NCBI GenBank assembly: GCA_003507475.1
Contig: DNVQ01000015.1
Location: forward strand, 45,102-59,955
Direction of reading: 5' to 3'
Length of the DNA stretch: 14,854 bases
From: Candidatus Moraniibacteriota bacterium
GTDB lineage: Bacteria; Patescibacteriota; Minisyncoccia; Moranbacterales; UBA9337
Below, piece after piece: positions 7,670-10,940 of this stretch. A program made the position numbers and the translations under genes. Position 1 is the stretch's first letter. Every line of letters begins with the position of its first letter. The notes beneath the pieces were generated by a model that made no database searches, had not been told where the DNA came from, and saw nothing but the letters and a program-made list of their open reading frames with translations.

Positions 7670-10000
7670 ATGTATCTAAAAAAACTTGAAATAATTGGAT
7701 TTAAATCTTTTGCCAATAAGACTGTTATAGATTTTATGCCTTCAGATTCGATCGGGGAGGTCAATGGTACAAACAAAAGTGGTGAAAGAAAAAAAATGGG
7801 CATTACGGCAATTGTGGGTCCTAATGGAAGCGGTAAATCTAATATCGCTGATTCTATTCGTTGGGTGATGGGTGAGCAGTCGATGAAAAATTTGCGAGGT
7901 AAAAAATCGGAAGATGTTATTTTTGCTGGAAGTGGAAATAAAGGTAAATTGAATTATGCCTCAGTTTCTCTACACTTAGATAATTCTGATAAGAAAATCC
8001 CGTTAGATTTTTCAGAAGTAATTATTCGAAGAAAAATTTACAGAAGCGGTGAAAGTGAGTATCTTATTAATGGCTCCAAGGTAAGATTGGTAGATATTAC
8101 TGATTTATTGGCTAAGGCCGGAGTAGGAAAAGATAGTTATAGTGTGGTTAATCAGGGAATGAGTGACGCTGTTTTGAATGCTTCAATAAGCGAGAGAAAA
8201 TCAATTTTGGAAGATGCGGCTGGAGTAAAGCAATATCAAATTAAAAAAGAAAGAGCACTTAAAAAACTTGAAGCAACTAGTAAAAATCTTTTGCAGGTCA
8301 GTGCACTTTTGGGTGAAATCGAGCCTCACTTGAAGATTCTAAAAAGACAATCTGATAAAGCTCAAAAAGGGGCAGAAATAAAAGCTAAGCTAAGAGAGCT
8401 TCAGGAGAAGTATTTCGCTTTTTTGTGGCATTCTTTTCAGACTGAAAGAGAAGAATCTTTTAGACAAAAAGAGGATTTAGGTAGGGAGGTGATGCTGATT
8501 CAAAGAGATTTGGATAAGCTTAATGATTTTGTGGAAAGTGAATCTCAAAAAATGAGACAAAATAAAAAGCAGGATGAATTAAAATTTGAGAGAGATAAAG
8601 TTTACAGAGTTATTAATATTGCAGAAAAAGAAATAATGATGACTGAGGGAAAGATGGAAATTTTAAGAGATAGAATTAGGCAGCAGGGAATTATAAAAGA
8701 GATTTTAGTAGATAAAAGATATATCCAGGAGGAATTGGAAAAAATTCACCAAGCTCAAAGAGAGTTAAGCGATAGAATAGGGAAGATTACAACCTTGGAA
8801 GAATTGCAGGAACTGAAGGAGTTTATTATAAATATAGAAAAAAATATTGTAGTTTTGAAAGGAGATATCGGCAAGGGTAAGGTGGAGGGAAAGAAGACTC
8901 AAGAGCAGATAGAAGAGGAAAAGAGGGGCAATAAAGAATTGGTAGAAATGAGCGGGCATTTGGAAAAATTAAGAAAAGAAGTTCAGACAGCGAGAGAAAA
9001 AATTGCTCAGATAAATGCGCAGATTCAACAAGAGGTAGAAAAAGACGTTAAGGCTCGCGAAGAATTCTTTGTAGCGGAGGAAAAATTAAGAGAAGGACAA
9101 AAAAGAATAGATATTGCCAAAGATAAATTTAATGATGCCAAGGTGTCTCTGGCTCGAATTGAAGTGCGCGAAGAAGACTTGATTGCAGAGGCTAAAAATA
9201 ATTTAAATGCGGATATTAATAATCTTAACTTTGATGGCGAGAAAATTGATCGTTATGATACAGAACAAAAAATTTCCAGATTAAAAATTCAATTGGAGCA
9301 AATTGGAGGAATTGATCCCTTAATTGTACAGGAATACGAAGAAACCAATAAGCGTTACGAAACTTTGCAACAGGAATCAAAGGACCTGGAAAGTGCGATT
9401 ACCTCCTTGTTGGAAATTGCCAAAGAGATGGATAAGAAAATTGATGTTGTTTTTGCTGAGGCATTTGGAAAAATTAATGATGAATTTTCTAAATACTTTA
9501 AGATAATTTTTGGGGGAGGAAAAGCCAGTTTGGTAAAGACTAAAAAGAAAAAATTTGTAAAAACTAAAGAAATCGAGAATGATGGTTTGGATGTGGAAAA
9601 AGGTGATAAGTTAGATGAGGAAATTGAGGATTTGGAGAATAATGACAAAGATGAAATCGGAATAGATATTTATGCTTGTCCTCCAGGAAAGAAAATTTCC
9701 AATCTATCCATGCTTTCCGGTGGAGAAAGATCCCTGACTTCTTTGGCGTTGCTTTTTGCGATTATTTCATATAATCCACCTCCTTTTTCTATGTTGGACG
9801 AAGTTGAGGCTGCACTGGACGAGGCTAATTCAAGAAGATTTAGTAAGATTTTAAAAACCCTATCAACTCAGACTCAGTTTGTGGCTATCACTCATAATAG
9901 GGAAACAATGCGTCAAGCCTCCTATCTTTACGGAGCTACTATGAGTGAAGATGGAGTGTCAAAATTATTATCGATAAAATTAGAGGATAAGGAAGGATAA
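7670..10000 (+). CDS. smc: Chromosome segregation ATPase SMC, short form without a recognisable hinge
   Basis: ABC-type ATPase that organises and separates chromosomes. Both head halves are complete: MYLKKLEIIGFKSFANKT, Walker A GPNGSGKS (50-57), ABC signature LSGGER (682-687), Walker B FSMLDEVEAALDE (D710, E711) and a FVAITHN switch (H-loop). It is 776 residues against the usual ~1150-1200. The stretch between heads, about 190-555, is charged coiled coil throughout. It contains no globular hinge with the usual glycine-rich motif and no CxxC zinc hook. Possible turning points are G371-T375 and G398-G407. Two head insertions stand out: ~21 residues before GITAIVG (about 23-43), and a charged stretch at about 623-661 before YACPPGKK. 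The start lacks an SD. No scpA or scpB is adjacent. Confidence 0.93.
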   Translation: MYLKKLEIIGFKSFANKTVIDFMPSDSIGEVNGTNKSGERKKMGITAIVGPNGSGKSNIADSIRWVMGEQSMKNLRGKKSEDVIFAGSGNKGKLNYASVSLHLDNSDKKIPLDFSEVIIRRKIYRSGESEYLINGSKVRLVDITDLLAKAGVGKDSYSVVNQGMSDAVLNASISERKSILEDAAGVKQYQIKKERALKKLEATSKNLLQVSALLGEIEPHLKILKRQSDKAQKGAEIKAKLRELQEKYFAFLWHSFQTEREESFRQKEDLGREVMLIQRDLDKLNDFVESESQKMRQNKKQDELKFERDKVYRVINIAEKEIMMTEGKMEILRDRIRQQGIIKEILVDKRYIQEELEKIHQAQRELSDRIGKITTLEELQELKEFIINIEKNIVVLKGDIGKGKVEGKKTQEQIEEEKRGNKELVEMSGHLEKLRKEVQTAREKIAQINAQIQQEVEKDVKAREEFFVAEEKLREGQKRIDIAKDKFNDAKVSLARIEVREEDLIAEAKNNLNADINNLNFDGEKIDRYDTEQKISRLKIQLEQIGGIDPLIVQEYEETNKRYETLQQESKDLESAITSLLEIAKEMDKKIDVVFAEAFGKINDEFSKYFKIIFGGGKASLVKTKKKKFVKTKEIENDGLDVEKGDKLDEEIEDLENNDKDEIGIDIYACPPGKKISNLSMLSGGERSLTSLALLFAIISYNPPPFSMLDEVEAALDEANSRRFSKILKTLSTQTQFVAITHNRETMRQASYLYGATMSEDGVSKLLSIKLEDKEG

Positions 10001-10013
10001 AACCAGGGTTTTT

Positions 10014-10079
10014 GTCATCCTCGAAAGTAAAATTTCTTGACGATTTTACGAGTCCTAGAAATTTACTTATCGGGGATCT
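10014..10079 (+). repeat. Left 66-bp arm of the GIY-YIG unit
   Basis: It starts GTCATCCTCGAAAGTA and ends ACTTATCGGGGATCT. It is inverted relative to 10414-10479, with 11 mismatches clustered in the middle. Within the arm, ATCCTCGA pairs with TCGGGGAT and AAATTTCT pairs with AGAAATTT, so each arm is also a foldback hairpin. Confidence 0.9.
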
Positions 10080-10113
10080 CCAAAAAATAAATCAAAATAC
10101 AATTGCGAAATAT

Positions 10114-10407
10114 ATGAAAAATTATTATGTTTATATATTAACCAATAAAAAACAAGGTATTCTTTATGTGGGAATTACAAATAATTTAGAAAGAAGAATA
10201 TATGAATATAAGAATAAAAAAATCAAAGGTTTTACGGAAAAATATAATTTAGATAAATTGGCTTTTTATGAGGATACAAGTGATGTATCGTTTGCTATTC
10301 AAAGAGAAAAACAATTAAAAAAGTGGAACAGACAATGGAAAATAGATTTGATAGAAAAAGATAATCCTGAGTGGATAGATTTGGCAAGCAGTTGGTATGG
10401 AGAATAA
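10114..10407 (+). CDS. GIY-YIG superfamily endonuclease, UPF0213/YhbQ-like
   Basis: 97 residues from the ATG at 10114 (a TTG at 10012 in the same frame would add 34 residues translated from the left arm, which is unlikely to be native). The fold signature is YYVYILTNKKQGILYVG (the 'GIY' at 5-7 and 'YIG' at 18-20), followed by ITNNLERRIYEYK with the conserved arginine R27. The usual histidine of the family at position 32 is tyrosine. E65 in AIQREKQLKKW is the likely metal-binding glutamate. The ending KWKIDLIEKDNPEW is typical of the short single-domain family. Members are DNA nucleases or of unknown role. No SD is seen. It is enclosed by inverted 66-bp arms, which suggests a part in mobility. 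Confidence 0.92.
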   Translation: MKNYYVYILTNKKQGILYVGITNNLERRIYEYKNKKIKGFTEKYNLDKLAFYEDTSDVSFAIQREKQLKKWNRQWKIDLIEKDNPEWIDLASSWYGE

Positions 10408-10413
10408 ATATTA

Positions 10414-10479
10414 AGATCCCCGATAAGTGAATTTCTATCGCTCCTTGAGTCGCTAAGAAATTCTACTTTCGAGGATGAC
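10414..10479 (-). repeat. Right 66-bp arm of the GIY-YIG unit
   Basis: The reverse complement starts GTCATCCTCGAAAGTAGAA and ends CACTTATCGGGGATCT, 83% identical to the left arm. It begins seven bases after the nuclease stop codon. It folds on itself: ATCCTCGA against TCGGGGAT, GAATTTCT against AGAAATTC, and GCGA...GCGA near the tip. A minus-strand frame through it encodes the same MSSSKVEFL peptide as the left arm. Confidence 0.9.
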
Positions 10480-10562
10480 AAGTTCGATAATATTGTTATC
10501 CTTATCTCTATTAGCAGTGAATTTTAATTGATCAATTATTGTAATCTAATAAGGTAATTAAA

Positions 10563-10940
10563 ATGAAACAAAAGAAAAAAATATTAATCGTGGAAGATGA
10601 GGCTCCATTATCAAGAGCCTTGAAAGATAAATTTGAGAGTGAAGGCTTTGAGGTTATGGTAGCGGAAAACGGGGCAGTTGGATTGGAAGTGGCACTCAAG
10701 GAACTACCTGATATGATTTTATTGGATATCGCAATGCCAGTCATGGATGGACTGGAGATGCTGAAGTTGCTTAAGGAAACCGAAGCGGGAAAAAAGATTA
10801 AAGTGATAATTTTAACTAATTACGGAGATATGGATAAATTTGTCCTTGCTAAAGATTTGGGAGCCGATGATTATTTGGTAAAGGCCGATTGGGGGATGGC
10901 GGATATTGTGGCAAGGGTGAATAAGTTTATCTGGTACTAA
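10563..10940 (+). CDS. Single-domain response regulator (CheY-like receiver)
   Basis: 125 residues, one receiver domain with no output domain. It starts KKILIVEDEAPL with the acidic pair E11-D12. The phospho-acceptor is D55 in MILLDIAMPVMDG; T85 (IILTNYG) and K107 (YLVKADW) complete the switch. It is a cytoplasmic phosphorylation target that must act by protein contact or as a relay. There is a weak SD (AAGG, 10551-10554) eight bases before the ATG. It lies after the GIY-YIG unit and is convergent with the histidine kinase at 13168-11114, the obvious partner candidate, although they are not one operon. A good terminator follows 35 bases after the stop. Receivers of this kind are common in CPR genomes. 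Confidence 0.95.
   Translation: MKQKKKILIVEDEAPLSRALKDKFESEGFEVMVAENGAVGLEVALKELPDMILLDIAMPVMDGLEMLKLLKETEAGKKIKVIILTNYGDMDKFVLAKDLGADDYLVKADWGMADIVARVNKFIWY

Follow-up and report, generated by a model that had tools for sequence, protein, structure and literature searches.

A GIY-YIG nuclease gene between two CGTC-type REP hairpins: a likely autonomous member of a REP-like mobile family

Why does a GIY-YIG nuclease gene of only 97 codons lie between two inverted hairpin arms? The locus that raises this question belongs to Candidatus Moraniibacteriota bacterium (GCA_003507475.1, contig DNVQ01000015.1), of which we analysed positions 45,102-59,955, a stretch of 14,854 nucleotides called the window here (G000:C1:45102-59955 in our genome set). 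The genome is a 1.2-Mb draft of 62 contigs. An original prediction, made from the bare sequence, proposed a minimal mobile unit that resembles REP/RAYT systems in its logic but uses another enzyme. The features of the site are the following, in window coordinates (class A is defined below):

7670..10000, + strand, smc, left neighbour of the site (context)
10012..10079, + strand, upstream REP arm of CGTC type, long form, tag TTGTC outward, stem starting with AT
10114..10407, + strand, class A GIY-YIG nuclease gene, 97 aa, Pfam GIY-YIG E-value 8.5e-18
10414..10481, - strand, downstream REP arm, inverted copy, tag TTGTC outward
10563..10940, + strand, response regulator, right neighbour of the site (context), directly after smc in genome G001

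The 97-residue GIY-YIG gene had been predicted between the arms and behind smc, and both the Pfam match and the end of smc at position 10000 agree with this. The arms, predicted at 66 bp, lie within an inverted pair of 68 nucleotides each (10012-10079 and 10414-10481), which are 84% complementary with 334 nucleotides in between. They were also expected to be self-folding, which is borne out by their folding as single-stranded DNA (-12.4 and -12.6 kcal/mol, z -3.6 and -4.0) and by the covariation of the stem described below. The peptide MSSSKV, noticed earlier in both arms, can indeed be read from each of them because the arms are copies of one repeat. It is the start of a mechanical 131-residue open reading frame with a TTG start, gives no evidence of a peptide, and was rejected as a signal. 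Rfam gave only two matches, both far under the gathering score, which we read as chance.

The arms do not occur only at this site, a restriction that the original prediction had counted as evidence against itself. With the upstream arm and its flanks as query, 27 matches were found in the own genome at an E-value of at most 0.001 (query and downstream arm counted), and a looser pattern with up to three mismatches found 58 places compared with 6 for the reversed control. A regular expression pulled 23 copies from the 27 loci, and after removal of one identical copy and four of other length, 18 copies of 65 nucleotides were aligned for covariation. With a stem model drawn from these same aligned arm sequences, 98.5% of the stem cells were paired (shuffled mean 93.0) and 26 stem cells were changed on both sides (shuffled mean 8.6), values that none of the 500 shuffles reached; slid-stem controls paired at most 49.5%. 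Two further measures were unconvincing, namely the pairs with a double change (5 vs 3.4 shuffled, 22/500 as high) and the further pair types (13 vs 14.1 shuffled, 482/500). Some long REP copies (L016, L017, L018, L022 and L026) have a nested insert inside the stem, which in four of them is CCCGCCTGC...GCGGGCAG.

REPs have been sorted into a GTAG and a CGTC super-family (Di Nocera 2013, PMC3733652). According to the passages on the latter in that publication, CGTC REPs have the tag CGTC, TGTC or CCTC, a stem of 8-9 bp nearly always starting with AT, a loop of 4-5 and mostly a CCA tail, occur chiefly as one kind of inverted dimer, are known from five phyla and include dRS3 and RPE-4/6, with heterodimers in many of the families (section 14). 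These passages report that CGTC REPs are not accompanied by transposase genes, state that they "apparently lack a dedicated transposase" and leave the matter to future work (PMC3733652).

The window arms carry such an unpaired tag (TTGTC) at one end. Positions 1-2 of the stem are complementary AT, since all 18 own-genome copies have AU in columns 4-64 and UA in columns 5-63, a figure partly built in because the copy extraction required AT beside the tag. Copies are dispersed and inverted dimers predominate: among the matches listed for six genomes, 35 of the 37 REP pairs at most 200 bp apart are +-, two are ++ and none is -+ (nested matches dropped; one more +- pair, in G022, left out). The arms thus share the tag, the AT foot, the dispersal and the inverted pairs with the CGTC super-family, including dRS3 of Neisseria and RPE-4/RPE-6 of Rickettsia, which the cited passages report without an enzyme (PMC3733652). 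They differ from it by a longer, bulged stem of about 20 pairs and by a tail of CTC or CTT in place of CCA. The form with short stem and CCA fits many other class A loci, and the upstream arm of the related unit C50 is also of the short form. Close REP doublets in G019 and G011 are almost always hetero-pairs with one ATCC and one ATTC member (9/9 and 9/10, counted by hand).

Class A comprises the matches to the window protein of at least 64 bits in 54 related genomes, 37 in total, which are found in 23 of these genomes. All other listed matches have at most 43 bits, one of those (G036:C26) being a fragment at the end of a contig. Class B denotes the remaining, UPF0213-like GIY-YIG genes. In 36 aligned class A members 20 columns are invariant, including Y7, Y18, G20, R28 and E65, all five of which the window protein keeps. 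Together with the fold, it has the conserved Tyr, Tyr, Arg and Glu of a GIY-YIG nuclease; we take these columns of class A to be the catalytic ones. At position 32 (window 10207-10209) the window protein has a Tyr in place of the His that is nearly invariant in the class (EYK instead of EHK), and judging from this substitution its activity may be reduced; the C50 copy keeps the His.

The AF2 model of the class A protein has a mean pLDDT of 93.3, and its closest solved folds are the UPF0213 protein BH0048 and the branched-DNA nuclease Slx1. Slx1-like stand-alone prokaryotic GIY-YIG proteins, UPF0213 (described in parts of PMC1564403), have the same minimal single-domain fold and are the nearest solved structures. 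Membership in UPF0213, a family named in the original prediction, is nevertheless a poor fit and was rejected, since the nearest solved UPF0213 chain is matched at an E-value of 0.018 and the protein scores apart from the class B genes. The family counts 1607 proteins at an E-value of at most 0.001, and two of the window protein's nearest relatives are named Parcubacteria group and Moranbacteria. Such a large family and the Slx1-like fold would suit a domesticated nuclease that serves the host at CGTC REPs, for example by resolving cruciforms, and rides along with them. The patchy presence of class A (23 of 54 related genomes) and its broken copies (L071 and L081 with stops, TYG73 with a frameshift) argue against this, and we regard it as unlikely. 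The class A open frames of L072, L075 and L076 extend back into the upstream REP (VIPGLTRDL, SFPRRRESS), and frames of this kind are a possible source of wrongly placed start codons.

To score the arms around the genes, we used a detector that required GTC followed by A or G and a stem of 7 or more pairs, allowed a single mismatch in the stem, and looked up to 250 bp away. A locus was called bracketed if it had a '+' CGTC-type REP upstream and a '-' one downstream (tags outward). Of 127 class A loci given, 5 had short flanks, and 77 of the 122 that could be scored were bracketed, namely 3/3 of the own genome, 18/32 of the relatives, 49/77 of the genome contigs and 7/10 of the plasmid records. 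The genome contigs are the best 80 of 327 relatives, so that close relatives are over-represented, and the plasmid records are 10 of 33. The UPF0213-like class B genes differ, with no CGTC-type REP bracket in any of 60 loci (63 given, 1 without gene call and 2 with short flanks) and a single arm in seven. Random windows in class A loci were bracketed in 7/277 cases and shuffled flanks in 1/121. These controls come from a run in which 121 of 126 class A rows and 34 of 36 class B rows were scored and 31 rows fell between the score limits and stayed unclassified. With a looser detector used before, the values were 66/100 for class A, 7/258 for random windows and 3/100 for shuffled flanks.

Out of the 45 class A loci that failed the two-sided test, 26 had one arm and 19 had none; in the selection that we viewed, imperfect REPs were seen by eye at several loci (for example L107 and L129) and none at others. 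Some arms among the 77 look partly spurious (L110, L145, L169 and L173), and at L180 the downstream arm chosen looks spurious while a better one is visible. Unlike the GTC of the tag, its first base was not required by the detector; it is T or C in 77 upstream and 74 downstream arms of the 77 bracketed loci. The CCA tail, likewise not asked for, was found in 37/77 upstream and 40/77 downstream arms. Arms are more alike within a locus (0.83) than between loci (0.66, permutation p 2e-4). Aligning the upstream with the downstream flanks gave no information, since the open frames extended into the arms.

Bacteria named in the 80 contig titles include Bacteroidetes, Ignavibacteria, Omnitrophota, Planctomycetes, Chloroflexi, cyanobacterial genera, Proteobacteria, Nitrospira and Patescibacteria. 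One N. gonorrhoeae record, given here as a description only, has a class A gene with dRS3-type repeats on both sides. No class A match at an E-value of at most 1e-5 was found in the phage collection. IMG/VR contigs (L268-L309) hold 42 class A-like loci, of which 21 of 35 scorable ones are bracketed (1 duplicate, 6 with short flanks), and some of these loci may be proviruses or host contigs. On plasmid p1 of Planktothrix agardhii (L186) the class A gene has a type IIL restriction gene on one side and DISARM drmA on the other. The record of S. meliloti Ak57 (L181) has two matches, and its upstream flank ends in an apparent second class A gene followed by a REP, possibly a tandem pair of class A genes.

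REP numbers were compared across the 54 genomes with the pattern GTCATYCY...RGRATC, for which the reversed control gave 0-4 per genome. The median is 49 REPs in the 23 genomes with class A vs 5 in the 31 others (p 6.5e-5; within-family permutation p 3e-4), and at least 10 REPs are found in 20/23 vs 12/31. Some genomes are REP-rich without class A (G006 with 152, G052 with 70, G038 with 34, G019 with 33 and G028 with 29) and some are REP-poor despite it (G007 with 1, G036 with 2 and G042 with 3). The CGTC REPs could instead be moved in trans by a RAYT/Y1 or other transposase and have settled around a possible repair nuclease, which would then be a passenger. A Y1 transposase match is present in 31 of the 54 genomes, and G006 and G052 fit this account as REP-rich genomes without the class A gene. 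The median REP numbers, however, are 50 with class A only (n=7), 5 with Y1 only (n=15), 43.5 with both (n=16) and 2.5 with neither (n=16), and Y1 presence alone gives p 0.096. Y1/RAYT in trans is a weak candidate for the REP mover on these numbers and was discarded. The class B genes of the same genomes, bracketed in none of the 60 cases, and the published report that CGTC REPs are not accompanied by transposase genes (Di Nocera 2013, PMC3733652) likewise speak against a passenger, an account to which we give little credence.

A mobile unit should leave sites with and without it, and both are found. In G001, the only genome of the same genus searched, the same response regulator begins 47 bp behind smc (88% identical), and the gap contains neither a REP nor the nuclease gene. 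The unit is therefore not fixed downstream of smc, the second finding that the original prediction had set against itself. Eight other genomes of the family lack this neighbour pair and are uninformative on the site. The units C1 and C50, whose proteins are 89% identical, are homologous from a point within the upstream arm up to the tag of the downstream one, where the similarity fades and only chance-like matches follow. The neighbours of class A units differ between loci.

On Sphingobium plasmids the gap between fnrL and a response regulator is a filled site in 7 records, whereas 4 records do not have the gene there. Compared with the filled site, TYG74 misses a piece of 353-354 bp, and in TYG74 and TYG64 one double-tagged palindrome remains that resembles the outer halves of the two arms; in TYG72 and TYG65 this gap is occupied by different sequence. 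The empty Sphingobium site can be explained equally well by a deletion between the short direct repeats of the arms and by an insertion into the palindrome. No target-site duplication was identified, as the flanks in G001 are too diverged and the Sphingobium sites are open to deletion. The Novosphingobium loci L193/L194 were not used as empty sites; the gene is absent there but the entire intergenic stretch differs. A clean empty site was not found in Rhizobium CIAT894.

At a nearby Sphingobium site, an 85-bp doublet is present in TYG71 and TYG73 and absent in TYG46 and TYG74. Doublets of 85-88 bp have both the REPs and the inner spacer ends CCCGCT and AGCGGGACC in common with the gene-bearing unit, and this points to a single element family for doublets and unit. 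Their common ends are as expected if the doublets are putative non-autonomous relatives of an autonomous element. Doublet-like places number 2-12 per Sphingobium record among those listed, records without a class A match included; such plasmids, counted as plasmids and not with their chromosomes, still have 10 (TYG64), 8 (TYG65), 4 (TYG72) and 2 (TYG74) places.

These sites also bear on two accounts in which the REPs are not spread by the nuclease. The flanking hairpins might be RNA elements of a housekeeping nuclease in an immobile unit, and passages of Di Nocera 2013 (PMC3733652) describe REPs as plausibly transcribed and as possible RNA elements. Against this stand the dispersal of the repeat far from the gene, the differing neighbours, the empty sites and the result that no terminator-like site was found in 9900-10620 of the window, and we hold it to be highly improbable.

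The strongest rival is homing into REP sites, which has its first step in common with our preferred explanation. I-TevI and I-BmoI are GIY-YIG homing endonucleases, which resemble the window gene in having the GIY-YIG fold in a selfish gene. The window protein differs in its 97 residues with the GIY-YIG domain only and in the hairpin arms around its gene: Pfam gives GIY-YIG and an overlapping weak T5orf172 match and no NUMOD match or other extra DNA-binding domain of the kind seen in homing endonucleases, and the NCBIfam model for group I intron endonucleases reaches 23 bits compared with a cut-off of 56. A free-standing homing endonuclease could still cut REP sites that lack it and be copied by gene conversion into the space between the two arms of an existing doublet. 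The arm types that often differ at one locus (L070, L076), as in doublets, the solo palindromes at the empty sites of TYG74 and TYG64 and the known use of this fold in homing (in parts of PMC1564403) agree with such a course. REP numbers that track class A presence and the inner spacer ends common to doublets and unit speak against it, and we see it as possible though rather doubtful.

We consider it likely, from comparison of sequences, that the unit at 10012-10481 is an autonomous member of a REP-like mobile family whose nuclease, together with host joining, would spread the REPs. This explanation is favoured by the recurrence of the bracket, its specificity for one class, the solo and paired dispersal, the homology ending at the tag, the empty sites and the doublet ends. 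The proposal of a minimal mobile unit thus gains support from the 27 matches and the empty site in G001, and it is exceeded by the class-wide bracket, the filled and empty Sphingobium sites and the doublets that share the ends of the unit. The class A enzyme probably spreads the CGTC REPs.

Our best reading is a mobile system of REP/RAYT-like kind that is driven by a GIY-YIG nuclease, with cutting and movement as inferred steps. The nuclease would recognise the GTC tag plus hairpin, either as a single strand at a fork or as a cruciform. GIY-YIG enzymes hydrolyse DNA and are not known to form a lasting covalent intermediate, so joining would fall to host repair or replication, which would copy the bracketed segment to a new or already REP-bearing site. 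TnpA-REP has been reported to cut single-stranded REPs with the aid of GTAG (in passages of PMC8266576); by analogy, the nuclease may cut at the foot of the tagged hairpin, and gene-less paired REPs may be mobilised in trans.

REPtrons, which combine GTAG REPs with RAYT/TnpA-REP of the HUH Y1 type, likewise have an enzyme gene framed by dispersed tagged palindromes and REPIN-like short doublets. They differ in their HUH tyrosine transposase and GTAG tag, compared with a single-domain GIY-YIG protein and the tag GTC here; the window unit has no HUH Y1 transposase beside GTAG REPs. According to passages of PMC6006769, a REPtron does not transpose as a whole. The repeats were already known and the logic is REP/RAYT-like, with an unrelated enzyme. 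In the open-licence PMC literature (titles, abstract starts and some passages, with preprints and most subscription work outside this scope), no GIY-YIG genes linked to CGTC REPs were found.

We lean slightly towards a wider claim, that class A proteins are the enzymes so far missing from the entire CGTC REP super-family, with dRS3, RPE-4/6 and their relatives. Prokaryotic mobile elements of a new kind would then exist, with a structure-specific hydrolytic nuclease of some 95 residues that acts on tagged hairpins and, together with host repair, replaces a transposase and drives both units and doublets. If true, this would explain the spread of CGTC REPs and carry the REP/RAYT principle over to an unrelated enzyme fold, and it would provide a very small hairpin-directed DNA mover that is open to bench study.
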